In this document: positions 27,107 through 45,778 of the stretch, piece by piece | Position numbering within the stretch: position 1 is the stretch's first letter | How the letters are laid out: each line of letters starts with the position of its first letter | NCBI RefSeq assembly: GCF_002975435.1 | Contig: NZ_PCPT01000002.1 | Span: 434,001 to 498,000, forward strand | DNA length: 64,000 bases | From: Arthrobacter sp. MYb227 | Lineage (GTDB): Bacteria; Actinomycetota; Actinomycetes; Actinomycetales; Micrococcaceae | Reading direction: 5' to 3' | Translations under genes and position numbers: made by a program | Notes under the pieces: generated by a model | What the model saw: the letters and a program-made list of their open reading frames with translations, nothing else | What the model was told of the DNA's origin: nothing | Databases searched by the model: none

Positions 27107-27598
27107 CTAAACTCCGTTCAGTTCAGAGGTTGAGACAACCCTGATGCGCTCGCCCTCAACAGCCACCACGGCAACGGGTGTGCCTTGCTTGATGGGGCTG
27201 TGTGAAAAGACGAGGCGTTGGTTGATTTCATCGGGGTGGTTCAGCTGAACCTTCCCAATGGTGTTGTTGATATCTGTGGTGGCGATGCCAAGTAAGCCGA
27301 TGATCTCGTGCGGCTGCGCATCGGTAATTTTGGCCATCTTCCGGGCCAGAAACGTTGCGCCGGCGATGCCGAGGATCCCCAGCATCGATGCGACGAGGTA
27401 GGCAAGGGTGAGCGAGCCGTTATTGAGCAGCACAATCGCACCCGCGGCGCCAAAGAGCGTCGCAGCCACACCAACGGCCGTGGTGGAGATGATCCCCTCC
27501 AAAAAATCGAGGAGCTCTCCAACCACCATGGACAAAATCAAGAGCAGGAGGCCAACGCCTCCGATCACTGCGAATGCGAGCATGCTGGCTTCTTTCAT
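27107..27598 (-). CDS. NfeD-like membrane protein
   Basis: 163 residues. Two or three hydrophobic segments lie in the first 90 residues (MLAFAVIGGVGLLLLILSMVVGELLDF and LFGAAGAIVLLNNGSLTLAYLVASMLGILG). The C-terminal part (ITDAQPHEIIGLLGIATTDI, HSPIKQGTPVAVVAVEGERIRVVS) has the beta pattern of an NfeD OB-fold. It is upstream of, and co-oriented with, the flotillin gene. The start may instead be the ATG at 27583; neither start has a strong ribosome site. NfeD proteins of this short class partner flotillins in membrane organisation. Confidence 0.75.
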   Translation of the reverse strand: MKEASMLAFAVIGGVGLLLLILSMVVGELLDFLEGIISTTAVGVAATLFGAAGAIVLLNNGSLTLAYLVASMLGILGIAGATFLARKMAKITDAQPHEIIGLLGIATTDINNTIGKVQLNHPDEINQRLVFSHSPIKQGTPVAVVAVEGERIRVVSTSELNGV

Positions 27599-27765
27599 TC
27601 AAAGGGAATAACTCCCAGCCTACGTGCCAGCTCCCCGCTGACGGTGTCAGACCTGCCGTGGTGTGCTGAGTATGTCGGGCAGATTTGTAAAGGCGTCCCG
27701 GGAGATCTGGCATAGCGCAAGGCTTCCCCGCGCGTGAAAAGGCCGGCAAAAACACCACAACGTGC

Positions 27766-27800
27766 GTGGTGCCCAAGCTCACCGCCCATACCCTAGACAT
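27766..27800. repeat. Left copy of 35-bp direct repeat flanking the CRISPR-Cas block
   Basis: Identical over 35 bases to 44399-44433 (begins GTGGTGCCCAAG, ends CCCTAGACAT). The flanking bases differ on both sides. The right copy is the upstream region of rlmN, so this copy is an orphan fragment of the rlmN control region, 168 bp from the nfeD-like start. Confidence 0.95.
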
Positions 27801-28226
27801 AGTGGAGACACGACTCCAAAACGGTCCTACCAGCGCTGAGGGCTATACAAAATATCGGTGATAAGTGCTCTTGCGCTCGCACAGGTTGTAGCGGCCATCT
27901 CCTTAAACAGACTGGCGACCGCTCTGATTTAGAAGCACCACGGTCGCTAGTCCTCTAGGATCCGATTGTTTGGATTGCCTAGAGAACTTAAGTTATCAGT
28001 CAAACTCGAGAAAAGTAATATTTACAACAGCTTGCTTGTTTAATTCTCCAAAGTTCATTACTAACTTCTCGGAATTTCAATGTAACCCAGCAACCGCCGG
28101 GAGCACTTTTCTACGACAGCCTGCTTTGGCTCAATCCCGCACATACGCGAGTAGCTTCCTACTCGTGCGAGTCTACCCGCGAATACGCTCACTTAGGTGG
28201 TCGACGGACTAGGTAAGCCCTCATGC
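27801..28226. other. Left end of the inserted block, no gene
   Basis: 426 bp between the left direct repeat and the cas2 stop. It is AT-rich in the middle and holds no convincing CDS, integrase or tRNA. It contains the degenerate CRISPR-repeat-like sequences listed separately. Confidence 0.6.
28079..28155. CRISPR. Two degenerate CRISPR-repeat-like sequences downstream of cas2
   Basis: 28128-28155 begins GGCTCA, keeps CCCGCA and ACGCG, and matches the array repeat at about 17 of 28 ungapped positions, more with one gap. 28079-28106 ends in GGGAGCAC, identical to the repeat's last 8 bases, and matches about 18 of 28. The two are 21 bp apart, less than a normal spacer. They have the same orientation as the main array and lie where many I-E loci keep an array, next to cas2. 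They could be relics of a decayed second array, or chance. Confidence 0.4.
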
Positions 28227-28625
28227 TTATCGCCCACGCCGGTACTTGCTCATATTGCTCCAGCCGGGTCTTATTCCGGTTGAACCACTTGCTTTGTCTG
28301 ACTCTAATGCTGGTGTCGTGGTAGCTACAATGCTGATGGATTCCGGTTTTGGTTCTCGAGGACGTGCCATGAGTGAGATGCCATCAAAGTCTTTGACCTG
28401 CCAATGATGCCGATGCACTCGAAATTTCATTCTTTGCTCGTTGCGGGCAGTGAAGATCAATATTGCACGGCCATCTTTACAGAGGAGTTTTACCTCGGCC
28501 CAGATTTCGTCTCTGATTCGAGCGGAAACGACACCGACAAATACCCCTGCGCTGATTTCCAAGAACCATCGGGTCAAGAATCCGCGCAGTCCCACGGGAC
28601 AAGACGAAAGCACCAAGACTGTCAC
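28227..28625 (-). CDS. cas2: CRISPR-associated endonuclease Cas2 (type I-E)
   Basis: 132 residues. TVLVLSSCPVGLRGFLTRWFLEISAGVFVGVVSARIRDEIW is the diagnostic Cas2e start, and ILIFTARNEQRMKFRVHRH follows. Cas2 dimers bridge two Cas1 dimers in the integrase that inserts new spacers. The C-terminal tail past residue 95 is longer than in E. coli. The GTG start overlaps the cas1 stop (GTGA), so translation is coupled. It is the last gene of the cas operon. Confidence 0.95.
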   Translation of the reverse strand: MTVLVLSSCPVGLRGFLTRWFLEISAGVFVGVVSARIRDEIWAEVKLLCKDGRAILIFTARNEQRMKFRVHRHHWQVKDFDGISLMARPREPKPESISIVATTTPALESDKASGSTGIRPGWSNMSKYRRGR

Positions 28626-29578
28626 GAGGCATCGCCGCTGGTTGCGTAGTTGTTGCCGCTGGGTAGCAGACCAGCGGCGTAATCCCAGATGTTTACTACG
28701 TCGTTGCCGAGCTCGGTGTCCTCGGGGACTTCATCCGGTAACAGCAGCTGCTGGATGTCCTGAGCACACCTGCCCATCAGCCCACTGGAAAATACTGCAT
28801 CACGAACCGCGTGTCTTACACCAGCAGTTACGTCTGCGGGCTCGGACGCGGTGACTTGGAAAGCGATGGGGATGGTTAGCTGCGCCTTATACAAATCTGC
28901 AATGTCGTAGACAAATGATTTGTCATGTCCGGTGTGGACAAAACCAAGCCCGGGCGAACAACCTAGAGAGACAATGACTGTATGAATAATTCCATAGAGG
29001 CAGACGTGCGCCGCAGACAGAGCTTTATTAATCTCGTCGCTGGAGTCAAAATCATCGACTCGGTAGTCACGACGCGTCCATGGAACTTTCCACTTTTCAG
29101 ATTGTTCGCGGTAGATGCGCCGGATACGGGCCCCTTCGCGTCCGCGTAGTTGTTGCATGGTCGCTTGAGAGATATCTTCGCCCGGAAAGCGAAGCTCATA
29201 CATTTCTCGGGCGACGCCCAGACGGAGTTGCTGGTTGGACACGAGGCGGGCTTGCGACTCTAGCAGCCGTGATGATCGAGCCAGCGAACGTCCATGAGCG
29301 TAGTAACGCACACCGTTTTCTCCAACCCAGACGGCCGTGGCCCCAGAATCGGCAAGCAGCGACATCGCCTGGTGAGTCACACGGGTTCCGGGTCCAAAGA
29401 GCAATGTTCCAATCGCAGCAGCAGGAACATGGACTACTGACTCCTTATCCGTAACCGTTAACGCATTCTGGTCCCGATGGACGGTGCAGCGTTCCAGATA
29501 GAGGAAGGAGATTCGGTCTTTGACACGGGTTAGCGCTGGTAGCTGGATCGGGCGTTTGGAAGGAGTAGGAGCCGCCAT
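28622..29578 (-). CDS. cas1: CRISPR-associated endonuclease/integrase Cas1 (type I-E)
   Basis: 318 residues. LPALTRVKDRISFLYLERCTVHRDQNALTV opens the N-terminal beta domain. ALSAAHVCLYGIIHTVIVSLGCSPGLGFVHTGHDKSFVYDIADLYKAQ carries the catalytic His and Asp of the Cas1 active site. It joins new spacers to the leader-proximal repeat together with Cas2. It begins 1 base after the cas6e stop. Confidence 0.97.
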   Translation of the reverse strand: MAAPTPSKRPIQLPALTRVKDRISFLYLERCTVHRDQNALTVTDKESVVHVPAAAIGTLLFGPGTRVTHQAMSLLADSGATAVWVGENGVRYYAHGRSLARSSRLLESQARLVSNQQLRLGVAREMYELRFPGEDISQATMQQLRGREGARIRRIYREQSEKWKVPWTRRDYRVDDFDSSDEINKALSAAHVCLYGIIHTVIVSLGCSPGLGFVHTGHDKSFVYDIADLYKAQLTIPIAFQVTASEPADVTAGVRHAVRDAVFSSGLMGRCAQDIQQLLLPDEVPEDTELGNDVVNIWDYAAGLLPSGNNYATSGDAS

Positions 29579-29579
29579 G

Positions 29580-30266
29580 CTAGATGGAAACTGGAGTTAG
29601 CGACATGAGCCCTAGACCGTAAGCCTTGCCACGGCCAATTCCAGAGACTAATGCCGTACGAAACGCTTCAATGTCATCGACTCGGAGTGTTCCATCGAAC
29701 TGGGTGCTGTGCAAAGTGACCATTGAGTTATTTCGTTTGAAACGGCGGTTTCCCGATGGGCCGATACGAACCATCGGGCCATGCTCGGCGGACTCAAGAA
29801 TGGAAAAGCCATGGGTGCTGCTTTGGCGCTGTAACCACTGAACTTTTTGTTCGTCGTGGATAATCGGTACTCTTTTACCGCGGGTTAGCTCCGGTCTTTT
29901 GGCATTGGCGGAGCCAATATCCACGGCTGCCTTCATGGTGTTTGCGGTGAGCCTGAAACCATAAGTCCCACCCTGCTTCACCTGCTTCAGAATACGTGAA
30001 TAGTCCTGAGTTTCGGGCATCAGATGTCTAAGCCCAGCTTCCTTGTGGAAAACCTCGGTGGAGGGTTCTTCGGTGCTCACAACGTAGAGCCAAGTACTTG
30101 TAGCAAAGGAATCGACTCGCCACAGTACGCGCTGTTCACCGGATTGTCCGTGGGGTGCTGGTGAGAACATTTTCATGATGGCACCGTGCAATCGATGCGG
30201 GTTGGTGAGGTACGGCATTGCATTGCGTGAGATCGGATCGATGGCAATGCGAGTTCTGAAGGTCAT
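29580..30266 (-). CDS. cas6e: crRNA endonuclease Cas6e (CasE/Cse3)
   Basis: 228 residues. The catalytic-histidine region is NPHRLHGAIMKMF (H24 and H27), and the C-terminal glycine-rich RNA-binding loop is SGIGRGKAYGLGLMSL. It cuts the repeat stem-loop of the array transcript and stays bound to the 3' hairpin of each crRNA. The ATG at 30266 follows the cas5 stop by 5 bases. A longer frame to 30290 lies inside cas5 and is not needed. Confidence 0.95.
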   Translation of the reverse strand: MTFRTRIAIDPISRNAMPYLTNPHRLHGAIMKMFSPAPHGQSGEQRVLWRVDSFATSTWLYVVSTEEPSTEVFHKEAGLRHLMPETQDYSRILKQVKQGGTYGFRLTANTMKAAVDIGSANAKRPELTRGKRVPIIHDEQKVQWLQRQSSTHGFSILESAEHGPMVRIGPSGNRRFKRNNSMVTLHSTQFDGTLRVDDIEAFRTALVSGIGRGKAYGLGLMSLTPVSI

Positions 30267-30271
30267 GATGA

Positions 30272-31027
30272 TTAGTCCAATCCGTCCCAAGTATGGTGGT
30301 CGTCAATGCCCGTGTTTGTGTGAACCTTCGGTACATGAAGCTCGTTGTGGAGCACTACCGGTTTCAACGCTGAGTAGGTCCGTGGCAGGTAGTGTCGATG
30401 TTTTGAGCTGTAGGAGATGGGTAGATCGCGGATGGTGATGCCCCGTGGATCATCTGGCGTCGTATCTGCATGCAAAGGAAGCGAAAGCATTTCCTGATTT
30501 CGTAGCCTGCGGTTCATGACCGAGGAAATTTGTGCGGGTAAGCCGCGCAGTACTTCAACCGAGTTTCCCTCGAGCAATCCGGTGCCGTCTGTCCCGTCGT
30601 GGATGCCGCGCATAGCAACCGGCCTCGCGGGGGGACAGGATCGTCTACCTAAGAAGAGCGGATACACGGGACGTACAAGGGCATCTGCGATCTCCTGGAC
30701 CAGGGCATCGTTTCCGGAAAGTGCGGCAGTGAAGCGCGCATCTGCCAAATAGTAACGCCGGCTTAGTGGCATCGCCTGAGATTTATCCATCGACAGCGAA
30801 ACCTGGAAGTCTTCCACGAGCACGCCCGGCTGTTCGGTGCGCACCGCGAAAGTCAATGCACTCAAATCAGTGAAGTCGGCATCGCGGTCTCGGCCCAAGG
30901 CACTGGCCACAAGACCCAAAACTCCGCTCTTGGTCGGTTCCGAACCGGTGGAGCGCACTGTGAACCTGCTGTCGTTACCCCATGACTGAAGCGGTCCCGC
31001 TAGAGCCAGGAGTACGCTTACCGTCAC
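30272..31027 (-). CDS. cas5: Cascade subunit Cas5e (CasD)
   Basis: 251 residues. SVLLALAGPLQSWGNDSRFTVRSTGSEPTKSGVLGLVASALGRDRD is the Cas5e signature. Cas5e caps the 5' handle of the crRNA in the Cascade complex. The GTG start overlaps the cas7 stop (GTGA). Confidence 0.96.
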   Translation of the reverse strand: MTVSVLLALAGPLQSWGNDSRFTVRSTGSEPTKSGVLGLVASALGRDRDADFTDLSALTFAVRTEQPGVLVEDFQVSLSMDKSQAMPLSRRYYLADARFTAALSGNDALVQEIADALVRPVYPLFLGRRSCPPARPVAMRGIHDGTDGTGLLEGNSVEVLRGLPAQISSVMNRRLRNQEMLSLPLHADTTPDDPRGITIRDLPISYSSKHRHYLPRTYSALKPVVLHNELHVPKVHTNTGIDDHHTWDGLD

Positions 31028-32166
31028 TCTGCACGCCCCAGATGATCCAAAACCGCCTGATTCGCGATCTTGGTCAGTTCTGGCAGGGAAGCAGAATTTC
31101 CAAGTTCTTTCAGCGACTCGGTGGCCTTGCTGGCAGCTGACACATGCCGAGTGGTGATCAAACCATAGGCCTCATCGAATGACTTGACATGATTCGCCAA
31201 CTCAACTGCAGACTTTTCTAAACGCGATCCGCCAAAATCGGCGGTAACAGCCTGTTCGAAGGCCCCGACCCAGCTCAGCGGCTGTTCGTTGCTGAAACTC
31301 AGCACGATGGCATCGGGCAACGTGCCATTGGCAAAAGTATTCTTCTTGCCGGTGGGCATAGCGCGGACGAAGCTGTCAATGAACTGGGCGGTGGCCTCGG
31401 CCGCAACTGTTGCGTCTCCCAAGGTCTTGTTCAACGCGCCAACATTGATGGTGGCATAGCGATACAACGTGGAGGATGTGAACTCGACGGTGCCGATCAT
31501 ATCGGCACCGGCTTCGTCCTCTCCGCGTTTGTCATCCATGGCGGTGAAGTAATCGAATTCAGGTACGGCCTCGTGCACACTGATGGCGTGGGCTACCTGT
31601 GTGGAGGCATCGACGGAGAGTTCCTTGGCATCGGCGAGCATCCGGCCGAAGAGCGCAACATCGATGGCCTGATTGGCATTCAGTGCAGCAACTGCATCCT
31701 TCTTAACGGGCTTGCCTTCGGTATCGATGGCCAGCTGGGCAAGGTTCTCGGCCTGGGCGGCACCCATGAAAATCAAGTAGGCGCTTTCGGGAAGGGCTTC
31801 GGGTTCTACCGGTTCTCCGGCTTGGGGTTTAGTCTTTGCACGACCCTTGGGCACCGCAACCTTGATCTTTGCCGCTTCCAGTGACGTTTGTGCCCATGCT
31901 AGAGCATTTCCCTCATGTTCCGGGGCGAGCGCCGTGATTTCGTCGGCGACCAGCTTCACAACATCCTTGGTGCGAACACCAAGTTTATCGGCATCGAATT
32001 TGGTACCAAAGTCGGTGCGAATGGCGCGCTTCCATGCTTGGCTGGAGACCCGTTGGCGCACCGTGCCGCCATAGATTGCGGTCTTGGGAGAGCCGGACTC
32101 ATCCCGGTTGATGTTGTTGGGAGGCAGGGTCTGCAGGACATGGATATCGACAAAGAGGTTGCTCAT
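31024..32166 (-). CDS. cas7: Cascade backbone subunit Cas7e (CasC/Cse4)
   Basis: 380 residues. NLFVDIHVLQTLPPNNINRDESGSPKTAIYGGTVRQRVSSQAWKRAIR is the classic Cas7e start. The middle includes a Lys/Pro-rich segment (KGRAKTKPQAGEPVEPEALP, about residues 115-135) that is an insertion relative to E. coli CasC. Six copies would coat the crRNA spacer. The ATG at 32166 has AAGGAG 12 bases upstream, and 72 bp separate it from cse2. Confidence 0.96.
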   Translation of the reverse strand: MSNLFVDIHVLQTLPPNNINRDESGSPKTAIYGGTVRQRVSSQAWKRAIRTDFGTKFDADKLGVRTKDVVKLVADEITALAPEHEGNALAWAQTSLEAAKIKVAVPKGRAKTKPQAGEPVEPEALPESAYLIFMGAAQAENLAQLAIDTEGKPVKKDAVAALNANQAIDVALFGRMLADAKELSVDASTQVAHAISVHEAVPEFDYFTAMDDKRGEDEAGADMIGTVEFTSSTLYRYATINVGALNKTLGDATVAAEATAQFIDSFVRAMPTGKKNTFANGTLPDAIVLSFSNEQPLSWVGAFEQAVTADFGGSRLEKSAVELANHVKSFDEAYGLITTRHVSAASKATESLKELGNSASLPELTKIANQAVLDHLGRAE

Positions 32167-32238
32167 GGTGGTGTGGTTCTCCTTCAACGGACGATGGATG
32201 AAAACTTGAAAAGTGGAGTGGGGTTAACTGGCGGCTTG

Positions 32239-32820
32239 CTATTCGCCGAGGGGCATAGACGGGGTGGGTTTGGAATAGGCAAAGTCGCGTCCCCATTGCA
32301 GGAGGACTGGTTTGTGCTGTCCCGGGATCAACAAGCGGCGAAGATCATCGGCCAGTCGTACGTAGTCGATCGAAGCATCGGCGTCGCGCAGGATGCGGAC
32401 CAGTGCCCCCAGATGGTGTTGGACTTCCAACGGTGAGGAAGCACTTGCCAGTGCATCGAAACGGCGTTTGACGGCATCGGCAGACATGCCGTGATCGCTG
32501 AGGCCGCGTATGACCCTGCCAAAACGAACGCCCGGCTCATGCATACCCTTGGATTTCATGCCCTGCTGGTGGACCGCAAAGAGAGAGAGCGAAATATGCG
32601 AAGCCCATTCCGAGGGGCTTGCATGTTGGCCACGGCCTTGATCGGACGTGGGCAAATCCTCGAGAGTTACGCTCCACAGCTCTGGCTCGGTTCCCGGGGC
32701 CTTATTGGTGGCCTTGCGAAGGTGGGCCATGGTGCGCACGGCAGTTGCCTCGTTAGCTAGGTATCCCCGTTGAAGCTGGTTGACTTTCGCGGCAATGAAC
32801 GTGGTGAACTGATCAGACAT
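32239..32820 (-). CDS. cse2: Cascade small subunit Cse2 (CasB, Cas11)
   Basis: 193 residues, helical. Typical blocks are TMAHLRKATNKAPGTEPELW, SLSLFAVHQQGMKSKGMHEPGVRFGRVIRGL and HHLGALVRILRDADASIDYVRLADDLRRLL. Two copies stabilise the R-loop. The ATG at 32820 has AAGGAGAAGG upstream and overlaps the cse1 end by 8 bp. The frame is open further upstream to 33000, but that is a shadow of cse1. Confidence 0.93.
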   Translation of the reverse strand: MSDQFTTFIAAKVNQLQRGYLANEATAVRTMAHLRKATNKAPGTEPELWSVTLEDLPTSDQGRGQHASPSEWASHISLSLFAVHQQGMKSKGMHEPGVRFGRVIRGLSDHGMSADAVKRRFDALASASSPLEVQHHLGALVRILRDADASIDYVRLADDLRRLLIPGQHKPVLLQWGRDFAYSKPTPSMPLGE

Positions 32821-34504
32821 TGGCCTTCTCCTTGGCTGGGGGCGGGGAATTTGGTGGAACATCGGAGTCTGATGGGAAGCGCTTTCGCAGCGAAGCATTG
32901 AATCTGGCTCGGGCAGTGTGTGCGGTGTTCCAATGTCCGTCTTTGTCCTGCGATCCCAAGAGGCTGCGCTCGCTGGCCCGGGACATGAGCCGGTCGGCAT
33001 GCTTAGTCAGCAAGGTGCGTGCGCGTTGGTTCCACCCGGCACGAATATCGTTGGTGCTGTTGTCCGGGGCTACCTTGGAAAGCCAGCTGCGGAACTCGTG
33101 GTCGAAATCGAAGTAGGCGGCCGCTAGGACGCCTGCGGGATCAGCAGGTCGGTCGTTGCCGCCGGCAATCAGGAGGTTCTTGGCTAAATCGCCCAGATCT
33201 CGGATCGCATAGCCGGTGCGGCTGGCCGCGGCGAGTGCTTCCTGACGGTGTGCTACAGCCTTCTCGGTGAGAAGGGAAGCCATGAATGTCAGCTTGTCGT
33301 CGTACTGGGCTTCGAACGAGGAATCTTGGGGCCCGTATCTAAACCCGACAAGGACCGTGGAAAACGAATAGTCATCGTCGATAGTTCCCTTGTGTATCAG
33401 TCTGCCAAGCTGGCGTAGAACCCTGGGAGTTTCATGACGCCGGCCTTCAACTTGCTCGGAGTTTTCACTACCGAGAATAGCGCCTAAGCCCCGCCAAGCG
33501 GCGCGTGAAGGATCATGCTCGCGGGGCATAAAGACGGGAACTCCGAGTTTTTTTGCTTGGGGAACGCTATCCCGCCACAGGCTGAGCGGCTCAAATATGT
33601 GGGAATTTTGTGGAAGCAAGCGATCACCGTTGGTTACCAGCGCAGCTGTGATGTGTGTAGCGTCGTGGCGCAGTCTGACTCGACGCGAAGGCCAGGTGAA
33701 AATATCTGAATCGCCCACCGGATCAGGGGGAGTTGTTGAGCCTTTTTTCGGCACTGAACCATCTCCACGCGTGGATGAAGCATCAGGAACTTCACGTTCC
33801 CAGATAGCGGTGTCTTGGTCTTCACCGGTGCCTAATTCGGCGAAACGCAGATTGAGCATGAGCGTTTCAAACAAGTTCGCGCCTTCGACGTAGAGCCCTC
33901 CCAGTCGACCGGCCCACCCCGTGCCGATGGGATAACCTTTGCCTCCCTTGACCCGGTCATCACCTAGCGCGCCGGGTTTGATCCCGGAGTAATCATAGGC
34001 CTGCAAATGAACTAGCCATCGTGCTGCCTCGGCGAAGGACAACGTTGCAGCACCCGAGCCGGCACGGGTGGTGAAATGTTGGTGCCCCGCCGGGATATCG
34101 GGAATCAACCGTCCAGGCGAGTCATACTCGTTCTTAGGAGTTTCCAGAGTAGGGGTTTGCATAAACGGTGCCCGGGCACCGAGTAAATCGAACCGATTAT
34201 GGATCTCATTGCGGTCCAGATACGCCTCAACTGTTTCAGCAGGGAAGCTCTCCTGCTCCCACAGCGACGTCCATTCGTCTAGGGGTTCCTCGACTGCTCC
34301 CACTGCTTGCCGGGCCACGGCAAGCAGTACCCGCAGGATTGCAAAGTCCAGTGTTGGTACCTCGTTGCTCATCCGGCGTAGCAAATGTGCTTGAGCGAAT
34401 AAGTCCCGAAGTCCGAGCTCAGCAAGGCTTCCGTCGAGTCGCTGTACTGGAATCCAGGCCTCATCTACGAGGTTGAATGATATGTTCTCGGCTGGTTTAA
34501 TCAT
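32813..34504 (-). CDS. cse1: Cascade large subunit Cse1 (CasA/Cas8e)
   Basis: 563 residues. SFNLVDEAWIPVQRLDGSLAELGLRDLFAQAHLLRRM (residues 8-45) is the Cse1 hallmark, with LDFAILRVLLAVARQAVG after it. It recognises the PAM and recruits Cas3. It is about 60 residues longer than the E. coli protein (about 500 residues). Its ATG overlaps the cas3 stop (ATGA). Confidence 0.95.
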   Translation of the reverse strand: MIKPAENISFNLVDEAWIPVQRLDGSLAELGLRDLFAQAHLLRRMSNEVPTLDFAILRVLLAVARQAVGAVEEPLDEWTSLWEQESFPAETVEAYLDRNEIHNRFDLLGARAPFMQTPTLETPKNEYDSPGRLIPDIPAGHQHFTTRAGSGAATLSFAEAARWLVHLQAYDYSGIKPGALGDDRVKGGKGYPIGTGWAGRLGGLYVEGANLFETLMLNLRFAELGTGEDQDTAIWEREVPDASSTRGDGSVPKKGSTTPPDPVGDSDIFTWPSRRVRLRHDATHITAALVTNGDRLLPQNSHIFEPLSLWRDSVPQAKKLGVPVFMPREHDPSRAAWRGLGAILGSENSEQVEGRRHETPRVLRQLGRLIHKGTIDDDYSFSTVLVGFRYGPQDSSFEAQYDDKLTFMASLLTEKAVAHRQEALAAASRTGYAIRDLGDLAKNLLIAGGNDRPADPAGVLAAAYFDFDHEFRSWLSKVAPDNSTNDIRAGWNQRARTLLTKHADRLMSRASERSLLGSQDKDGHWNTAHTARARFNASLRKRFPSDSDVPPNSPPPAKEKANV

Positions 34505-37377
34505 GGGCCATTGCCTTTCTGGGGTGGTGTCACGATGAGTCCGAGCTGTCTGTCATAACGAATGTGGTGGTCCGCAAGAGTTGTCTCACACTTTTGATTG
34601 AGAAAGAGTACAAGTTGGCCTTTGAGCAGTTGATTTTCTTGCCAGGCCTCTAATCCTTGGGATTCGAGTTCGGTCAGGGTCTTGTCTAAGGTTGTAAAAT
34701 CCTTTGAGAAGCTCATCGGTAGGCGAACGCTGTTGCGGAGAATCTGCCGAGCCAATTCAAAATCTTCGATTCGGGCAACACCGGTGAGCGAGAGCTGCAG
34801 ATGTTCTTGCCAGGGGAGCCCGGAGATTGTGTCCTGCTCCCGAGTCATTAGGAGGACTTCGAATGAATCCTCAATGTCGCGGACGCGAGTTACCGCTTCG
34901 GCTTCCTCACGCGCCGGACCGGACAAATTCCTGGTCTTGGCATCGACGGCAGTACCCGATTCGGTTGCTCGGTCGATAAACAGATCCAGTGAGGGCTTAG
35001 GCGCGGGGATAAGTCCGGTCTTCGCCTTGGCTTCTTTCTTTGCCAGTTGGGCTGCAGCGACGCGGGCATATTCGTCGTGATCCTTGCGCCAGATGGGAGG
35101 ATAGACCAAATCTGCAGCGTAGGCCTCTTGCACAAGGTCCGCGGCTTGGTGAGGATGCCGCAGAGGGGTATCCCACGCAGAGTGTTGTTCAAAAACCGCC
35201 AGCGTGTTCAACAAAGGGAATTCCCCGTAGATAACCGAGACGGACCGCAGAATCGTCGAATGCGAACGCTCCCAGTCATCGACCCCGCGCAGCCATAACT
35301 CGGGCTGCCTGAAACCAGGACAACGATTGCCGCGTATGTGGCGTTGCAAACGTCCGGCGCGTTGCAGCAATAAATCCATCGGGGCAAGATCACTCACCAA
35401 CAGATCGAAGTCGATGTCCAAGGATTGTTCGAGTACGGAGGTTCCGACGACCACCTGAAGTAGAGGGCGGACCGCTCCTGAATGTTCAGGTCCAAGCGTT
35501 TCAACCAGCAATCTTTCAATTTCGAGGCGGTCAGCTGTGATAAACCGCGAATGCGCTAGAACCGTATTATTAGGAAGTTTAGAACGGATAAATTGGAAGG
35601 CCGCTTGAGCTCTAGCCACAGTATTACAAATGATCCCGATGACGCCCCCGGACGCGATACGTGGCTCAAGTAAATCCCACAAAGCTTCCAGCTCATCGGG
35701 AACCTGGATTGGTTGTACAGGAACCGGGGTAGTCACCAATACGCTATGGGACATCGTTAGTCCTGCAGACGAAACTTGGGTGACACACGGGTACCCCAAA
35801 CGCTCGGGAATTAGCTCAGCCATCATTGAATTAATTGCGTCCGAACGTTTGCCTCGAAATTGGTCGGGGGCTGCGCGCGAATAATAGGCCTTAGCGAGGC
35901 TGCGGCGTTGCTGGGCCGGAAGTGTGGCAGACATGAGGATCACTGGAACCCCATAGACGGACAGCCATTCTAAGATGCGGTGTAAAAACGTGAGCATATA
36001 CGCGTCGGCGGCGTGCACTTCGTCGATTACCACGACCTTGGAAGCCAATCCGAGATGCCGAAGTGTGTAGTGCTTGGTATTAAGTGCAGCCATGAGAACC
36101 TGGTCGATCGTGACAACCGAGATATTTGGCTGGAGCACGCGCTTTCGGTCCGAAAAAAAGTGGTGGACCAAGAACGTTGGAGAATCGGATGAAGTATCTT
36201 CGTCATGAATAATGCACGAGTGCAAGAGTTGCCTAGGCAGGGCTTCGAGCTGCGGGCTGAAACGTGCTTTTCCATGTCCCAGCGTAACGGTGGGCGTTCC
36301 ACTGCCATCGGGGGTAGCTGCTTTTAGCCAATCCAGAATACGAGGAAGCATGGCATCGGTGGTGGCCATGGTGGGCAGAGCAAACGCGACTCCGTTTAAG
36401 CCCAAGTTTGAAGCCAACTGTTCTGCCGCGGCAAGTGCCATTTCCGTCTTGCCGCTGCCGGTTGGTGCTTCGAGAATGTATAGCTCAGGGCTTGTCGCAG
36501 AGGAGACCATCCGGAAAAAGGTCTCCTGCATGAGCGAAGGCTGGGCCCCGGGTGGCAGGTTAAAACGTGATGCGTAGTAGCCAGAAGTGGATCTGGAGCC
36601 CTTACCGAATGACCACGTTGCCGGCAACCCTAATGCATGTTGCGCCTCTCGGATGCGGGTGAGATGATCCGGGGTAGTGGCGCCGGAGCGCAGTGCAAAA
36701 ATCGAGGAATTACTTGCAGCCCAGTCGGCGAGGATAACTAACCCGGTTAAAATCAACTGACACTTAGCAGGAACTCCAGTTGCTGCAAGCAGTTTAAGTG
36801 CTTGGGTGGCTTCCAGCTTTGCAGTCCAGCCGGTGAGCATCTCATCTTGGGCCGCTACCCATTTTGGGTTGCCTGGATTCTTTCTTAGCGTGTTGAGGAT
36901 ACCGGTTTCCGGAAAGCGACCATGATGGCCGCCGGACATGACCGCCACAGAGCTGGCCTTGGGCCCGGTATATCCGTAGTTTTGTTGGAGCCATCGGGAA
37001 ATAATGGCCATGCCATGTATAGAGTGTGGCAAATTGTCTAGATCGCCGGGCCGGTCAATTGCCGGGTACCCGAGCTCTTCGGCATGAGCGTAGAGCGAGG
37101 GAACTTGTTGCTGGAATTTTGGTGAGGCCTTTCCCACGTCATGAGTGGCCGCCAAAAATTCCACGAATGCTGCCAGATCTTGAGGTGATAGCGCTAGATC
37201 CTGAGCCAACGCTATTTTGATATTGGGGCTTGCCTGTTCGAGGATCATCCGTGCCGCATCCGCCGCGTCCACGCCGTGGTCGTACAGCGGCAAATGGAGT
37301 AGTTCTTCAGGGATATCCGGACGGTTTGTCTTGGCCCATAGTTCAGGTCTAATCGTGCTTTTGACAGGCGACAACAT
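34501..37377 (-). CDS. cas3: CRISPR-associated nuclease-helicase Cas3 (HD domain)
   Basis: 958 residues. The N-terminal HD nuclease has D33-H34 and the metal motif ATHDVGKASPKFQ (H79-D80). The SF2 helicase has EAPTGSGKTEMALAAAE (motif I), VVIDEVHAADAYML (motif II, DEVH) and LMSATLP (motif III), with QRAGRLQRH as motif VI. Cas3 is recruited by Cascade to nick and degrade the non-target strand. The start at 37377 has AAGGGGGA directly upstream. The gene heads the eight-gene cas operon, which reads away from the array. Confidence 0.97.
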   Translation of the reverse strand: MLSPVKSTIRPELWAKTNRPDIPEELLHLPLYDHGVDAADAARMILEQASPNIKIALAQDLALSPQDLAAFVEFLAATHDVGKASPKFQQQVPSLYAHAEELGYPAIDRPGDLDNLPHSIHGMAIISRWLQQNYGYTGPKASSVAVMSGGHHGRFPETGILNTLRKNPGNPKWVAAQDEMLTGWTAKLEATQALKLLAATGVPAKCQLILTGLVILADWAASNSSIFALRSGATTPDHLTRIREAQHALGLPATWSFGKGSRSTSGYYASRFNLPPGAQPSLMQETFFRMVSSATSPELYILEAPTGSGKTEMALAAAEQLASNLGLNGVAFALPTMATTDAMLPRILDWLKAATPDGSGTPTVTLGHGKARFSPQLEALPRQLLHSCIIHDEDTSSDSPTFLVHHFFSDRKRVLQPNISVVTIDQVLMAALNTKHYTLRHLGLASKVVVIDEVHAADAYMLTFLHRILEWLSVYGVPVILMSATLPAQQRRSLAKAYYSRAAPDQFRGKRSDAINSMMAELIPERLGYPCVTQVSSAGLTMSHSVLVTTPVPVQPIQVPDELEALWDLLEPRIASGGVIGIICNTVARAQAAFQFIRSKLPNNTVLAHSRFITADRLEIERLLVETLGPEHSGAVRPLLQVVVGTSVLEQSLDIDFDLLVSDLAPMDLLLQRAGRLQRHIRGNRCPGFRQPELWLRGVDDWERSHSTILRSVSVIYGEFPLLNTLAVFEQHSAWDTPLRHPHQAADLVQEAYAADLVYPPIWRKDHDEYARVAAAQLAKKEAKAKTGLIPAPKPSLDLFIDRATESGTAVDAKTRNLSGPAREEAEAVTRVRDIEDSFEVLLMTREQDTISGLPWQEHLQLSLTGVARIEDFELARQILRNSVRLPMSFSKDFTTLDKTLTELESQGLEAWQENQLLKGQLVLFLNQKCETTLADHHIRYDRQLGLIVTPPQKGNGP

Positions 37378-37635
37378 TCCCCCTTAGAAATTCCATCACT
37401 TCAGACCATAGTCGTGATGCCGGACACTTTGCGGTAAGTGCTACATGGCGTTTCGGAATTTGTACTGTGACCGGCACCTAAAAGTCACCGCAATTTATGG
37501 GTGTATTTTACGTTTTGCAGAGTATATGGCGGTCGCCAAGAATCGCTAGGGGGCCTTTTCGTTGGAGAACTTGTGTTTTGTTCGCGCAGGGGCAGGCAAC
37601 TTGTGGTTGGTGTTGTTCCTACACAGCTTTTGCTG
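37378..37635. other. Spacer between cas3 and the array (cas promoter region)
   Basis: 258 bp with no gene. It contains T-rich tracts and should hold the cas operon promoter on the minus strand. In the crRNA orientation it lies 3' of the array. No clear intrinsic terminator was seen, so array transcripts may run into cas3. Confidence 0.5.
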
Positions 37636-38209
37636 GGCTCATCCCCGCAGACGCGGGGAGCACGGACCCCGCTCCATGACACGTAGGTTGCACCGGGGCT
37701 CATCCCCGCAGACGCGGGGAGCACTTTGGGCCAGCACATCACCACGGTGGGCAAGCGGGCTCATCCCCGCAGACGCGGGGAGCACCCGAGCTGGAGGGAA
37801 AGACCACAAAACGCATTGGGCTCATCCCCGCAGACGCGGGGAGCACCAGGCAGTCTCGGCAATGGCCGGTGCTGGTGGCTCATCCCCGCAGACGCGGGGA
37901 GCACTGGTGCTTTACAAACAAGCTGACCACTGTGCCGGGCTCATCCCCGCAGACGCGGGGAGCACCGCGGGAAGGTTGTTCTGTGGCACCCCATATTGGG
38001 CTCATCCCCGCAGACGCGGGGAGCACAGCAATCTCAATCTGTTCACGAACACGGTCAAGGGCTCATCCCCGCAGACGCGGGGAGCACTTCAGGATCAAGC
38101 AACGCCGCAGCCGCAAATTGGGCTCATCCCCGCAGACGCGGGGAGCACCCACGGCTCACCCTCAATAGTTAGGGTGCGTACGGCTCATCCCCGCAGACGC
38201 GGGGAGCAC

Positions 38210-38364
38210 CGGCCTTTTTATTGCCCAAACGTGTGTGCCGTGGGCTCATCCCCGCAGACGCGGGGAGCACCGGCCTTTTTATTGCCCAAACGTGTGTGCC
38301 GTGGGCTCATCCCCGCAGACGCGGGGAGCACCGGCCTTTTTATTGCCCAAACGTGTGTGCCGTG
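38210..38364. repeat. One spacer present three times in tandem
   Basis: Spacers 38210-38242, 38271-38303 and 38332-38364 are identical (begin CGGCCTTTTTATTGCC). They lie near the leader-distal end. They arose by repeat-unit duplication, not by independent uptake. Confidence 0.95.
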
Positions 38365-39491
38365 GGCTCATCCCCGCAGACGCGGGGAGCACAATCTGCG
38401 ACGCCAGCACTTGAACCCGCAGCGGGGCTCATCCCCGCAGACGCGGGGAGCACTTTTGCGATGTTTTCGGCGAGGCCAGGTTCTCGGGCTCATCCCCGCA
38501 GACGCGGGGAGCACTGAGCATCAAGTACCGCACTGATTGGGCATGGGGGCTCATCCCCGCAGACGCGGGGAGCACATAGAGGGTGTTGCGTAGCTTCGCG
38601 GGAATTAGGGCTCATCCCCGCAGACGCGGGGAGCACGGTGCATCGAATTCCATGGCGATCATGTAGGCGGGCTCATCCCCGCAGACGCGGGGAGCACACT
38701 AACAAAACTGCCATCAGAGTTAAAGGGTGGGGCTCATCCCCGCAGACGCGGGGAGCACAAGCAGAGAGACGCGTTGACGAATGCGTAGCAGGGCTCATCC
38801 CCGCAGACGCGGGGAGCACGAGCCCTTCGCAAAGGCTTCATGTGCGGTAGCGGGCTCATCCCCGCAGACGCGGGGAGCACTAGTGCCACACCAGACGAAT
38901 TGGCGTTCGTATGGGCTCATCCCCGCAGACGCGGGGAGCACCCCTCAAAGATGCTTTTGCCTATGGCGCCCACGGGGCTCATCCCCGCAGACGCGGGGAG
39001 CACCCATGATGTGCCGGAACTGACTGCGGGATGCTGGGCTCATCCCCGCAGACGCGGGGAGCACATCGTGTAACGCTCGGCCGGCATAAACGAAATGGGC
39101 TCATCCCCGCAGACGCGGGGAGCACCGATGGTGAAGATGACTTCTTGGCGCAGGGTTGGGCTCATCCCCGCAGACGCGGGGAGCACGCTTCCTTCCCGGC
39201 TACTCGTCGCGCCGCTTAGGGCTCATCCCCGCAGACGCGGGGAGCACGCCCCAGCGGGCGCGCCCTGCACCGTGGGAGGGGGCTCATCCCCGCAGACGCG
39301 GGGAGCACCCATGAGTACTGAACACACCACGGACTATGCGGGGCTCATCCCCGCAGACGCGGGGAGCACGCTGAGTTGGCTGAGGTGAAGCCTGCCGCGT
39401 CGGGCTCATCCCCGCAGACGCGGGGAGCACGCGGTCAAGAGTGCATTGACTTTGCCGAATCTGGGCTCATCCCCGCAGACGCGGGGAGCAC

Positions 39492-39585
39492 TCACTGCCC
39501 GATACGGGGCACGGTGTAACGCGGGGCTCATCCCCGCAGACGCGGGGAGCACTCACTGCCCGATACGGGGCACGGTGTAACGCGG
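39492..39585. repeat. One spacer present twice in tandem
   Basis: Spacers 39492-39524 and 39553-39585 are identical (begin TCACTGCCCGATACGG), separated by one repeat. Confidence 0.95.
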
Positions 39586-40528
39586 GGCTCATCCCCGCAG
39601 ACGCGGGGAGCACTTGGGTGGCGAGGTTGCCAACGGGATAGCTGGGGGCTCATCCCCGCAGACGCGGGGAGCACTCAAGATTGTGCTCAGTGGATCAAAT
39701 ATCAGTGGGCTCATCCCCGCAGACGCGGGGAGCACCGGTTCCCAAAGAAACGCTCAGCTTCACCGGGGGGCTCATCCCCGCAGACGCGGGGAGCACGAGG
39801 TTGACGCTCGTTTGCCGAAGATTCCGGTGGGCTCATCCCCGCAGACGCGGGGAGCACTTACATGTCAGCGATTGGCATGCAGGGCGCACGGGCTCATCCC
39901 CGCAGACGCGGGGAGCACAATATCCCGGTGGGGCTTTTGATGGTCGGATCGGGCTCATCCCCGCAGACGCGGGGAGCACCGGCGGCATGCCATAGTTCCA
40001 CAACTGTCATTGGGCTCATCCCCGCAGACGCGGGGAGCACGGGGATACCCGGTCTGCGGACTCTGAAGAAGTGGGCTCATCCCCGCAGACGCGGGGAGCA
40101 CTCGTCCCACTGGTAGATCGCACGGCCAGCAGTGGGCTCATCCCCGCAGACGCGGGGAGCACCTGCCGCTCATTGGTATCTTCACCGCTGCCGCGGGCTC
40201 ATCCCCGCAGACGCGGGGAGCACCCCGTGCTTGTTAGCGAGCTTGTAACGCGCCAGGGCTCATCCCCGCAGACGCGGGGAGCACAGTCACACGCGGAATC
40301 ATGCGCGTAAAGGCGTGGGCTCATCCCCGCAGACGCGGGGAGCACGCACTTCAGTACCCGATTATGGGCCTGAAGCTGGGCTCATCCCCGCAGACGCGGG
40401 GAGCACTTGATGACGGTGCTTGGAAGGATGTTTCCCCTGGGCTCATCCCCGCAGACGCGGGGAGCACTTTCGGGAGGATAAATATGGGGGCCAGGCCCAG
40501 GGCTCATCCCCGCAGACGCGGGGAGCAC

Positions 40529-40772
40529 TCAAGTAAAGCTGGGCTGGGTCGGAATTCTTTGGGCTCATCCCCGCAGACGCGGGGAGCACACAAGCTCCGT
40601 AAGAAGGGCTTCACAGCAGCAGGGCTCATCCCCGCAGACGCGGGGAGCACTCAAGTAAAGCTGGGCTGGGTCGGAATTCTTTGGGCTCATCCCCGCAGAC
40701 GCGGGGAGCACACAAGCTCCGTAAGAAGGGCTTCACAGCAGCAGGGCTCATCCCCGCAGACGCGGGGAGCAC
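40529..40772. repeat. Two-spacer unit duplicated in tandem (2 x 122 bp)
   Basis: 40529-40650 and 40651-40772 are identical, each containing the spacers beginning TCAAGTAAAGCTGGG and ACAAGCTCCGTAAGAAG with their repeats. This is a clear trace of unequal recombination between repeats. Confidence 0.95.
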
Positions 40773-43700
40773 CTGTGTGCTTTTGCGGGCGGTATGGGCT
40801 GTACGGGCTCATCCCCGCAGACGCGGGGAGCACGAGTTTGTAACTGATTCGGCCGCAGACAATGAGGGCTCATCCCCGCAGACGCGGGGAGCACTTGGCC
40901 GCGGGCTTGGGCGAGGTGGAGTGCGAGGGCTCATCCCCGCAGACGCGGGGAGCACTGGTTTCTCGGTGTTCAGCGAGTACGGCGAGGGGGCTCATCCCCG
41001 CAGACGCGGGGAGCACATCTCCCCGAACTCCTCGACCAGCGTCCAGACGGGCTCATCCCCGCAGACGCGGGGAGCACATTGAGTGCGTCGAGATGCTCGG
41101 CTTCAAGTTGGGCTCATCCCCGCAGACGCGGGGAGCACTCTGTGATTGAAGCAGCGGAAGCATTGGGGTGGGGCTCATCCCCGCAGACGCGGGGAGCACG
41201 GGTTGTGGCGTCCTTCCGATTGGGTGTCCGGGGGCTCATCCCCGCAGACGCGGGGAGCACAGTGTAGACGCGGGGCTTTTCACAGCCGTAGCGGGCTCAT
41301 CCCCGCAGACGCGGGGAGCACGCCGTCTCCGGCGGTCTAGCCACGGTCGTGCGGGGCTCATCCCCGCAGACGCGGGGAGCACGTATCTACCTCCCGCAAG
41401 GACCGGTTACCGCAGGGCTCATCCCCGCAGACGCGGGGAGCACATCGGCGATCTCCGGGAAAGAGATACCCAAGTGGGCTCATCCCCGCAGACGCGGGGA
41501 GCACTGATTGTGGTGACGCAGGATGCGCCGGGCAATGGGCTCATCCCCGCAGACGCGGGGAGCACCCGATGTCCCCGGCTACGGCTGGTTACGAAAAGGG
41601 CTCATCCCCGCAGACGCGGGGAGCACATATTACTTTCGTCAAAAACACCGATCCGCGAGGGCTCATCCCCGCAGACGCGGGGAGCACGGTTTCTGGCCTC
41701 GCGCCCACACAGCGTGTTTGGGCTCATCCCCGCAGACGCGGGGAGCACCGCTTGAATACTCAGGAAATACCCCCATTTATGGGCTCATCCCCGCAGACGC
41801 GGGGAGCACACGCCTAACCCGGACGCTAACCCGCATCACCCGGGCTCATCCCCGCAGACGCGGGGAGCACAGATCATCTCTCCACCGCACAGAGGACCAA
41901 GGGGGCTCATCCCCGCAGACGCGGGGAGCACGTGGTGCGGGTTGAGCCTCGTACCGGGCGGCAGGGCTCATCCCCGCAGACGCGGGGAGCACCTAAACAA
42001 CGCCGTAACCGGTCTAACCGATATGGGCTCATCCCCGCAGACGCGGGGAGCACGTCGCCTTGACACGCATCTTCGGGGTGCCAACGGGCTCATCCCCGCA
42101 GACGCGGGGAGCACCAATGACACTAGCCTGGTTGGTGAAGGTATGGGGGCTCATCCCCGCAGACGCGGGGAGCACATGCCATTGGCCCTACCACGTAAAT
42201 TGGCACGGGGCTCATCCCCGCAGACGCGGGGAGCACCGGGCTAGTCGCGGTCGTCATCGCCAGCGTGAGGGCTCATCCCCGCAGACGCGGGGAGCACTAG
42301 TGTTATTGTCTTTATCGAGTCCAGCCGTCGGGCTCATCCCCGCAGACGCGGGGAGCACTCCGGTGTGGGTGTCTTGCCCGTCAATATGATGGGCTCATCC
42401 CCGCAGACGCGGGGAGCACTTAATGAAGGTGAGCTTGCACGGCTCATGGCCGGGCTCATCCCCGCAGACGCGGGGAGCACCCAAAGACCACCAAGGGAAC
42501 TCGCACCATCACGGGCTCATCCCCGCAGACGCGGGGAGCACCTGGCCTGAAATTAGTCAACGTATTCTCCTTGGGGCTCATCCCCGCAGACGCGGGGAGC
42601 ACTGAATTCTTCGGTGAACCGTGGGGCGACGGGTGGGCTCATCCCCGCAGACGCGGGGAGCACAGCGGGGTGATGCCCTTTGCTGGGGCGATGTAGGGCT
42701 CATCCCCGCAGACGCGGGGAGCACACGCCTTACCATCCGCGTCTTCGGGATCGATCGGGCTCATCCCCGCAGACGCGGGGAGCACATATCGGTGACTGTC
42801 AGCTCCCACCGGTTGGAGGGCTCATCCCCGCAGACGCGGGGAGCACATCTAATGGCACCCACGTCAAGCTCCGTTGTTGGGCTCATCCCCGCAGACGCGG
42901 GGAGCACCAGCTGTAAAAGTTCTGGAATGTCCATATTCTGGGCTCATCCCCGCAGACGCGGGGAGCACCACTTCATGATCAACCGCGTTGGTCTCACCAC
43001 GGGCTCATCCCCGCAGACGCGGGGAGCACTTGTCCCAAGATTTGGCGTCAGCCAAGCAACGGGGCTCATCCCCGCAGACGCGGGGAGCACCGGTGGCGCT
43101 GTCACGGTTTGGTGCTTTGAGAGGGCTCATCCCCGCAGACGCGGGGAGCACACCAATCCAGCCCGATCAACGCCGGTCACCGGGGGCTCATCCCCGCAGA
43201 CGCGGGGAGCACGGTTCAAGGGGCGCGCGTTGGGTTGTGGGAAGGGGCTCATCCCCGCAGACGCGGGGAGCACTCTTGGTGATGACCTTGATGCTGTCCC
43301 GGTATGGGCTCATCCCCGCAGACGCGGGGAGCACCATGCCCGAAGACAGCGTTGTCGGAACCGAGATGGGCTCATCCCCGCAGACGCGGGGAGCACCTCA
43401 TGCCGCAATCTCTCCAAGGTTGATACCTGGGCTCATCCCCGCAGACGCGGGGAGCACAATCCGATTCAGGCTCACGAAGGTATCGGCGGGGGCTCATCCC
43501 CGCAGACGCGGGGAGCACTCGACCCTGCCCCGTGTACTCCGAGGCAGAGAGGGCTCATCCCCGCAGACGCGGGGAGCACCTTCCGGAGTCAGGCCCTCGT
43601 TTGGATCTGTGGGGCTCATCCCCGCAGACGCGGGGAGCACTTCGATAACTGGTTTTTCAATCGCCCTCAGCTGGGCTCATCCCCGCAGACGCGGGGAGCA

Positions 43701-44311
43701 CTTCTGGCTTCGAGACTTCGTGGTCAAGCCGGTGGGCTCATCCCCGCAGACGCGGGGAGCACGCTATTGCTTCGATGGTGGAGCTGTCGTCTGCGGGCTC
43801 ATCCCCGCAGACGCGGGGAGCACCAGTAGCCTTATCCGGTGCCACAACGGTTACAGGGCTCATCCCCGCAGACGCGGGGAGCACTTGTAGCTTGCCTTTA
43901 TTTTGTGGCGAGGCTTGGGCTCATCCCCGCAGACGCGGGGAGCACCACTTTTTGGTGCGTCCACTGGAGCTAGGTCAGGGCTCATCCCCGCAGACGCGGG
44001 GAGCACGTGTGCCGATGTGCAGGCCGCCTCCATGGCGCGGGCTCATCCCCGCAGACGCGGGGAGCACCCTTTTCTTGATCGGTTCAGGGGCATCCACCAG
44101 GGCTCATCCCCGCAGACGCGGGGAGCACTCGCAAGACGCAGCGCTGGCTCCGGGTCCATAGGGCTCATCCCCGCAGACGCGGGGAGCACCCCTCCGATGC
44201 TTGCCGAGGTTGCTCCGGGTCGGGCTCATCCCCGCAGACGCGGGGAGCACAAATTCTCAAGACGCAATCTAAGCTTGGCCCAGGGCTCATCCCCGCAGAC
44301 GCGGGGAGCAC

Positions 44312-44398
44312 TCTAGTTGACTAGGGAAAATACGCCCAAATCAACAAACCGCAATCAGTTTATCTGCACTCGCCGACCAGAAGAACCTGGTAAAGGCG
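44312..44398 (-). promoter_or_regulatory. Probable CRISPR leader
   Basis: 87 bp between the last repeat and the right direct repeat. In minus-strand sense it runs into the first repeat with an AT-rich end and contains TTGCGG, 16 bp, TATTTT, a plausible promoter. It is back to back with the rlmN promoter. Its identity as leader follows from the repeat orientation. Confidence 0.6.
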
Positions 44399-44433
44399 GT
44401 GGTGCCCAAGCTCACCGCCCATACCCTAGACAT
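44399..44433. repeat. Right copy of 35-bp direct repeat (rlmN upstream region)
   Basis: Identical to 27766-27800. It contains CATACCCTAGACAT, whose TACCCT could be a -10 element, and ends 19 bases before the preferred rlmN start, so it looks like native rlmN control sequence. Confidence 0.95.
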
Positions 44434-44452
44434 GCATGGGAGAATGGAAGAG

Positions 44453-45778
44453 ATGACTTCCGCCGATAATTCCCAGCAGACCGTTCCCGCTTCCGTCGAG
44501 CCCACCGCCGCGGACATAAAAGCCCGCCGCGCCGCCCAAGCGGCGCAGGCCGCGGCTCAGGGTGCCCAGCAAATGCGCATCTCCGAATCCCGTGCCAAGG
44601 CCGAGGGGCGTGCACAGGTTCGCCCCACAGCCGAAGGCTGGAAGCAGGCAATGGGCGATGACGGTCGTCCGCAGCTGCAATTTTCCGCCAAGAAGCGCGT
44701 TTCGCAGCCACCGGTACACCTCGCGGACCTTACATTGGCCGAGCGTGCGGACAAGCTCAAGGAATTGGGCCTGCCCGGATTCCGCGCCAAGCAGCTCTCG
44801 GTGCACTACTTCCAGCATTACACCACCGATCCCGAGCTGATGAGTGACCTGCCCAAGGATCGCCGCGCCGAGATCGCCGAAGTCATGTTCCCCAAGCTCT
44901 TGACCGAGGTCAAGCGCCTGGCAACCGACGACGGCCGCACCATCAAGTTCCTCTGGCGTCTCTTTGACGGCTCGTTGGTCGAATCGGTCTTGATGCGTTA
45001 CAGCAACCGCATCACCCTGTGCATTTCCTCCCAGTGTGGCTGTGGCATGAACTGCCCGTTCTGCGCCACCGGCCAAGCCGGATTGACCCGTAACATGTCT
45101 ACCGCGGAAATCTTGGACCAAATCGTCCAGGCCAACCGCGTGATCGTCGAAGGTGGTCTGGGTGGCCAGAAGCACCCCGAAGAGCGCGTGGGCAACATCG
45201 TATTTATGGGCATGGGTGAGCCGCTGGCCAACTACAAGCGCGTCATCAACGCCGTGCGTCGCATGGTTGCCGAAGCCCCCGAGGGCCTGGGCATGAGCGC
45301 CCGTGGCATCACGGTATCCACCGTGGGCCTGGTGCCGGCAATTAACAAGCTGGCCGAGGAAAATATCCCGGTCACCTTTGCACTCTCGCTGCACGCCCCG
45401 GATGACGAGCTGCGCGATGAAATGATCCCGGTGAATTCTAAGTGGAAGGTCGACGAGGCAATTGATGCCGCGTTCAACTACTACGTAAAGACCGGTCGTC
45501 GCGTTTCCATCGAGTACGCCTTGATCAAGGACATGAACGATCACGGCTGGCGTGCGGACATGCTGGCCCGCAAGCTCAACGCGCGTGGCCGTGGCTGGGT
45601 ACACGTGAACCCGATCCCGCTGAACCCGACCCCGGGCTCGGTGTGGACTTCCTCGGAACCCGACGTCACCGCCGAGTTCATTGACCGTTTGGAAACCGCC
45701 GGCGTTCCTACCACGTTGCGCGATACTCGGGGCAAGGAAATTGACGGCGCCTGCGGTCAGCTGGCCGCAGCCGAATAA
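44453..45778 (+). CDS. rlmN: 23S rRNA / tRNA (adenine-C2) methyltransferase RlmN
   Basis: 441 residues from the ATG at 44453. It is a radical-SAM enzyme that methylates A2503 of 23S rRNA and A37 of some tRNAs. CGCGMNCPFCATGQAGLTRNMS carries the CxxxCxxC iron-sulphur cluster motif. GMGEPLANYKRVI is the SAM block, and GACGQLA near the end holds the catalytic cysteine. The N-terminal 85 residues are Ala/Gln-rich and predicted disordered, an extension over E. coli RlmN. Upstream in-frame ATGs (44432, 44444) are possible starts. It is a housekeeping gene that marks the right-hand border of the CRISPR block. Confidence 0.95.
   Translation: MTSADNSQQTVPASVEPTAADIKARRAAQAAQAAAQGAQQMRISESRAKAEGRAQVRPTAEGWKQAMGDDGRPQLQFSAKKRVSQPPVHLADLTLAERADKLKELGLPGFRAKQLSVHYFQHYTTDPELMSDLPKDRRAEIAEVMFPKLLTEVKRLATDDGRTIKFLWRLFDGSLVESVLMRYSNRITLCISSQCGCGMNCPFCATGQAGLTRNMSTAEILDQIVQANRVIVEGGLGGQKHPEERVGNIVFMGMGEPLANYKRVINAVRRMVAEAPEGLGMSARGITVSTVGLVPAINKLAEENIPVTFALSLHAPDDELRDEMIPVNSKWKVDEAIDAAFNYYVKTGRRVSIEYALIKDMNDHGWRADMLARKLNARGRGWVHVNPIPLNPTPGSVWTSSEPDVTAEFIDRLETAGVPTTLRDTRGKEIDGACGQLAAAE

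Follow-up and report, generated by a model that had tools for sequence, protein, structure and literature searches.

How did a complete CRISPR-Cas locus come to lie between two identical copies of a short element from the upstream region of rlmN? The locus is present in Arthrobacter sp. MYb227, in a stretch of 64,000 nucleotides (contig NZ_PCPT01000002.1, positions 434,001 to 498,000) that is referred to here as the window. An earlier note, made from the letters of the window, had described the block as a discrete insertion which split an ancestral nfeD-rlmN junction. Our analysis favours, with moderate confidence, entry of the block (approximately 27801-44398) into this lineage as a discrete unit by recombination at the element before rlmN.

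Enclosed by the two copies are a full type I-E cas operon and a CRISPR array with 110 repeats (Table 1). All eight cas genes of this type (cas2, cas1, cas6e, cas5e, cas7e, cse2, cas3 and cas8e) score above their Pfam cut-offs and, together with the array, assign the system to type I-E; the Pfam matches and the repeat count thus bear out the content given for the block in the earlier note. Apart from these genes and the array, the bracketed DNA holds just short non-coding tails, which speaks for insertion as one unit. To the content described earlier we can add the 87 bp that separate the array end from the right copy, and two degenerate CRISPR-repeat-like stretches in the tail on the cas2 side (28079-28106, matching at 18/28 positions, and 28128-28155, matching at 17/28). 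The two stretches may be the relic of a second array, or they may be chance matches, as similar scores occur elsewhere in the window. A small second array is present on the cas2 side of the locus in G002, one of 14 same-genus genomes (hereafter congeners); comparison of the non-coding tail and the leader with G002 gave no similarity.

Some spacers of the window array are duplicated: spacer 10 is present three times in tandem (10-12), spacer 31 is the same as 32, and the pair 48-49 is found again as 50-51. These duplications suggest recombination between array repeats. In base composition the cas block does not stand out as foreign. DNA searches of the left tail against plasmids, of the array against phages and of the block against plasmids returned no match, and the relatives of the Cas1 protein reach at most 61.9% identity in plasmids and less than 60% in phages. 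No Rfam family was detected at 20000-48000, and no tRNA gene in the whole window.

Table 1. Features of the CRISPR-Cas block and its flanks (positions in the window)
Feature	Position	Strand	Remarks
Interval not found at this place in congeners, outside the repeats	22193..27765	.	877-aa gene, flotillin, nfeD
Flotillin-like gene (Band_7) and nfeD, the latter so named in the earlier note (no Pfam hit)	25497..27598	-	
Left copy, orphan	27766..27800	+	35-bp rlmN-upstream element, without downstream GCATGGGAGAATGG
Non-coding tail, cas2 side	27801..28226	.	two degenerate CRISPR-repeat-like stretches
cas2e	28227..28625	-	PF09707
cas1e	28622..29578	-	PF01867
cas6e	29580..30290	-	PF08798
cas5e	30272..31027	-	PF09704
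cas7e	31024..32187	-	PF09344
cse2/cas11	32239..33000	-	PF09485; true start probably inside the ORF
cas8e/cse1	32813..34504	-	PF09481
cas3	34501..37377	-	HD, helicase and C-terminal domains (Pfam)
CRISPR array	37636..44311	+	110 identical 28-bp repeats, 109 spacers
Trailer, array end to right copy	44312..44398	.	87 bp; no similarity to congener flanks above shuffles
Right copy, native	44399..44433	+	35-bp element upstream of rlmN
rlmN	44435..45778	+	Radical SAM match; RlmN_N domain scores below its cut-off

The bracket is exact, as had been claimed: the copies at 27766-27800 and 44399-44433 are identical at 35/35 bases and the sequences diverge immediately on both sides. This pair is the longest dispersed repeat of the window outside the array. 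The second-longest exact direct repeat is 15 bp when the array and one short tandem repeat are excluded, and the longest exact direct repeat ranged from 14 to 17 bp in 20 Markov-1 simulations of window length. With a tolerance of 3 mismatches, the 4.3-Mb genome contains the 35-mer twice, both times in the window, and the 35-mer is thus not the dispersed genomic repeat which the earlier note had named as evidence against its reading. No third copy with at least 26/35 matches is present on the + strand of window positions 1-44600. As a control, exact direct repeats of at least 30 bp lying at least 5 kb apart were found in 0 of 80 rlmN loci (up to 21 kb, 1.6 Mb) and in 0 of 27 congener stretches, a rough control inasmuch as these stretches are shorter than most CRISPR loci (40 kb).

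Identity of rlmN (91-92% to three named Paeniglutamicibacter species, 88-94% to the 14 congeners) places the genome with Paeniglutamicibacter. The element is present as a single copy just upstream of rlmN in all 14 congeners and nowhere else (up to 3 mismatches to the first 23 bases), which agrees with the earlier assignment of the right copy to the rlmN upstream region. Across the congeners and the window 13 of the 35 positions are variable, and the window version differs from each congener at 4-9 positions; the two window copies agree at all 35. Because the window copies are identical where the congeners vary, the duplication is restricted to this lineage and young compared with the genus. 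Downstream of the element at rlmN, most Paeniglutamicibacter sequences carry GCATGGGAGAATGG or a close variant, which we take to resemble a -10 region. This motif is missing after the left copy, which is therefore an orphan, as it had been called.

Ten aligned sequences of the region upstream of rlmN (44399-44460), four of them from Glutamicibacter/Arthrobacter strains, share an invariant 16-bp core, GTGCCCAA-N-CTCACCG, and conservation of this core extends over Paeniglutamicibacter and Glutamicibacter-like genomes. Taken by itself, the core is not specific to rlmN: one additional match is present on another contig of the window genome, and 8/14 congeners have one each elsewhere than at rlmN. 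It is carried by 62 of 395 family genomes, and the window genome is the only one with two copies close together on one contig. The 35-bp element is probably a cis-regulatory element of rlmN, and its core is possibly an operator. When the rlmN upstream region was considered as an integration hotspot, the rlmN start region and the DNA preceding it shared no repeat longer than 17 bp in 80 loci. A 21-letter form of the element had 0 exact matches in IMG/VR viral contigs.

Presence of a type I-E system in the congeners was judged by a Cas8e match. One of the 14 has such a match (G002, 52% identity), on a contig other than that of its rlmN, and a system of the window type lies at rlmN in none of them. 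The 13 without a match carry one element each; the earlier note had named two copies in relatives lacking CRISPR-Cas as a second observation that would speak against it, and no congener without I-E has two. The single copy and the absence of I-E at rlmN in the congeners support a link between the lineage-specific duplication and the arrival of the block. Under insertion as one unit, the second 35-bp copy would have been carried in by the incoming DNA or created by the event; rlmN would keep an intact upstream region and the orphan element would be left at the far, cas2-side end. We infer that the duplication and the insertion were a single event, and likewise the kind of recombination that took place.

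The 43 window ORFs scanned with Pfam include no recombinase or transposase, in accordance with the absence of a visible integrase or transposase reported earlier. Matches to tyrosine-integrase domains number 13 in the genome, with several representing adjacent pieces; all are on contigs other than that of the window, distributed over five contigs with a weak match on a sixth. That no recombinase is linked to the block counts against insertion as one unit. Since no recombination gene was found in the block, the enzyme would have acted in trans or would have been lost, and the simplest candidate is a site-specific recombinase encoded by the donor or by another element. We consider it most plausible that such an enzyme, acting in trans or since lost, recombined the DNA at the short element; a role of RecA there is less likely. 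The best reading of the locus is a small integrase-less CRISPR-Cas island at a short site, with a presumed agent.

Two identical copies could also have arisen as a target-site duplication made by a transposase, or by fill-in of a staggered break followed by end joining, and the perfect identity of the copies is what is expected of a fresh duplication. However, 35 bp is far above the usual length of a target-site duplication, the 43 ORFs scanned include no transposase, and inverted repeats at the ends of the block are absent from the repeat listing. Joining of a staggered break is weakened further by the lack of a Ku match in the genome, in a search that was positive in 1 of 14 control genomes. 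We consider an origin of this kind highly improbable.

Unit insertion at the element needs to be reconciled with the left flank, where the claim of an ancestral nfeD-rlmN junction is not supported. The flotillin gene is present in 12 congeners, and flotillin/nfeD adjoins rlmN in none of them; flotillin and rlmN are 15, 53 or 401-462 kb apart in the eight congeners where both are on the same contig, and on separate contigs in the other four. In nine of the 13 congeners mapped (G011, with a short contig, was left out), 2.2-2.9 kb separate the end of an upstream TspO gene from the element, whereas the window homologue of TspO ends at 22192, 22.2 kb from it. The interval new to this place is therefore wider than the bracketed block. 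Its start, near 22.2 kb, is outside the left repeat, which calls for a minimum of two events. The flotillin/nfeD segment seems to have moved to its present place, and nfeD was probably brought beside rlmN by a separate rearrangement. The earlier note had proposed the corresponding interval of relatives as a check: one element copy with no I-E there is indeed what they carry, but an empty nfeD-rlmN junction was not found in the 14 congeners. No empty site with nfeD as left flank being found, the left junction cannot be called ancestral, and this too counts against insertion as one unit. A nfeD-element-rlmN junction, if it ever existed, was short-lived in this lineage.

The DNA next to the copies was also compared with the regions upstream of rlmN and of nfeD in the congeners. 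The flanks 27599-27765 and 44311-44398 bear no resemblance to them, and neither the left flank nor the left and right inner sequences scored above the best of 100 shuffles; one tie was observed (left inner sequence against the nfeD-upstream region of G003, 27 versus 27). A separate comparison, of 15 rlmN 5' regions with the 60 bp immediately inward of the left copy, gave a marginal value for G004 (21 against a near-top shuffle of 20), which was treated as chance.

These observations on the left flank raise the possibility that the orphan copy was made by the rearrangement which brought flotillin/nfeD to rlmN, through template switching or breakpoint duplication, the bracket then reflecting only the order of events. 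The flotillin segment is displaced relative to the 12 congeners that carry flotillin, and the entire interval of 22.2-44.4 kb is new to this place, as such an origin would have it. However, the repeats sit at both ends of the CRISPR-Cas block, and there is no repeat at the other end of the flotillin segment, the search for a third copy described above being negative. We hold this origin to be rather unlikely.

Two other genes on this side of the block are recorded here. An 877-aa gene at 22303-24936 has no Pfam hit and, by DNA, is near flotillin only here and in congener G001 among the stretches examined. An Abi_2-like (abortive infection) gene is present at 10353-11066, approximately 17 kb to the left of the CRISPR-Cas block.

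Direct repeats flanking the cas genes were surveyed in 50 I-E loci, namely 28 family loci, G002, the window and 20 class-level loci. The family loci are 28 of the 30 others with Cas8e (G079 and G233, with the gene near a contig end, were left out), and the class-level loci are 20 of 30 chosen from the 72 of 394 class genomes with a Cas7e match. Bracketing like that of the window was found in two of the 50, the window itself and G150, a genome of another genus of the same family. Most of the bracketing repeats in the survey adjoin arrays and look like leader or repeat copies, and others are short, weak or paralogous. Those of the class-level loci are mostly beside arrays on at least one side, the rest being shorter than about 50 bp, weak or paralogous; the bracketing matches in G137, G129, G046, G002 and G257 are short, or beside or like arrays. 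Within the stretches examined, rlmN lies beside the I-E system in none of the 28 family loci, nor in G002.

In G150 the I-E block occupies positions 2658-23717 in the joined coordinates of L186/L187. As in the window, the bracket is a chromosomal gene edge present in duplicate, and an array adjoins the intact gene, here a Meth_synt_2 gene: approximately the last 105 bp of its 3' end are repeated beyond cas3, and a CRISPR repeat starts about 10 bp or less from the intact stop codon. The two copies are identical at 103 of 110 aligned columns (94%), with 64 bp exact and a 2-bp insertion in the orphan, beside which an acyl-CoA dehydrogenase fragment is present. A Meth_synt_2 gene (E < 1e-100) is found in 5 of 23 genomes of this genus, G150 included, and in all four others it is directly followed by the genes which lie beyond the block in G150, an arrangement that amounts to an empty site. 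The differences from the window are the bracketing gene end with its imperfect copies, this empty site in four congeners, and the transposition genes. Between its two arrays the G150 block contains an IS66 transposase and, adjacent to it, genes for an rve/Mu-type transposase and then an AAA ATPase. Among the 11 ORFs of the block scanned with Pfam there is no integrase of the tyrosine or serine type. The transposition genes mean that G150 is not a clean parallel to the window. They may be later insertions into one array, although they could also have taken part in the movement. Because its copies carry mismatches, the G150 bracket points to recombination between two versions of the gene end and not to a fresh target-site duplication.

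It is tempting to read the two loci together, as CRISPR-Cas blocks whose insertion, by a recombinase acting in trans, reconstitutes the edge gene and leaves an orphan edge on the opposite side. The window would be the bare form, and G150 a second independent case whose transposition genes entered the array later. We regard this as a distinctly unlikely generalization, having lowered an already doubtful estimate on account of the transposition genes in G150. That such bracketing occurs in two of 50 loci, the other one with transposition genes, likewise counts against insertion of the window block as one unit.

The G150 copies bear on the RecA route as well. Here, circular or linear DNA of a relative with CRISPR-Cas beside the rlmN-upstream element would have recombined via this short stretch in common or via rlmN. 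Donor and recipient would both have the element, given its conservation within the genus and the occurrence of its core in Glutamicibacter/Arthrobacter relatives, and the differences at 7/110 columns in G150 fit recombination of two diverged versions. However, 35 bp is short for homologous recombination, and no donor arrangement is known, the 14 congeners and the 28 other family loci having no I-E system beside rlmN. This route is in our view possible but rather unlikely.

Two known kinds of mobile element which involve Cas proteins were considered and rejected for the window block. Casposons combine Cas1 with a DNA polymerase of family B and are bounded by terminal inverted repeats; Cas1 of the window lies in a full cas operon, and the block ends have no listed inverted repeat. 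Tn7-like CRISPR-associated transposons have tns genes in the block, and cas1, cas2 and cas3 are missing from them. A 5-bp direct repeat is given for such a transposon in one account (PMC6360697). The scanned ORFs of the window block are cas genes, with cas1, cas2 and cas3 all present, and its repeat is 35 bp.

Insertion as one unit has closer parallels among genomic islands. Vibrionaceae islands with CRISPR-Cas, attachment sites and integrases of their own are established (PMC6360697). Among them GI-24 resembles the window locus in that its type I-E system is chromosomal, is delimited by attL and attR, and is missing in a related strain; it differs in having its own integrase and an assayed excision (PMC6360697), whereas the window block is known from sequence and no integrase was found. 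For the 13-kb microcin H47 island of E. coli, which lies between repeats and encodes no recombinase, movement in trans was demonstrated (PMC3191183). It is likewise a small block between direct repeats without its own recombinase gene, but its cargo is a microcin, its repeats are extensive and imperfect, and its excision and integration were shown experimentally (PMC3191183). Compared with integrase-type islands in general, the window block is flanked on either side by a direct repeat, and one of the two copies belongs to a conserved chromosomal locus. An integrase of its own is absent from the ORFs scanned, and the relatives, which carry one repeat in 14/14 cases, show the nfeD-rlmN flanks joined in 0/12. 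The window locus resembles a combination of the GI-24 and microcin H47 types and may be called a putative island, though not one of the integrase type. Among the matches listed in a search of the open-licence literature with rlmN, rlmN was not named.

CRISPR-Cas is patchy within genera, and it is often unclear by which route a whole system travels with its spacer memory in the absence of a neighbouring mobile-element gene. Sharp repeats on either side of the block make it a concrete case which can be tested by PCR, and G150, whose empty site is visible in its congeners, provides a second. Excision of the window block, if observed, would demonstrate that immune memory travels with no need for mobility genes of its own.
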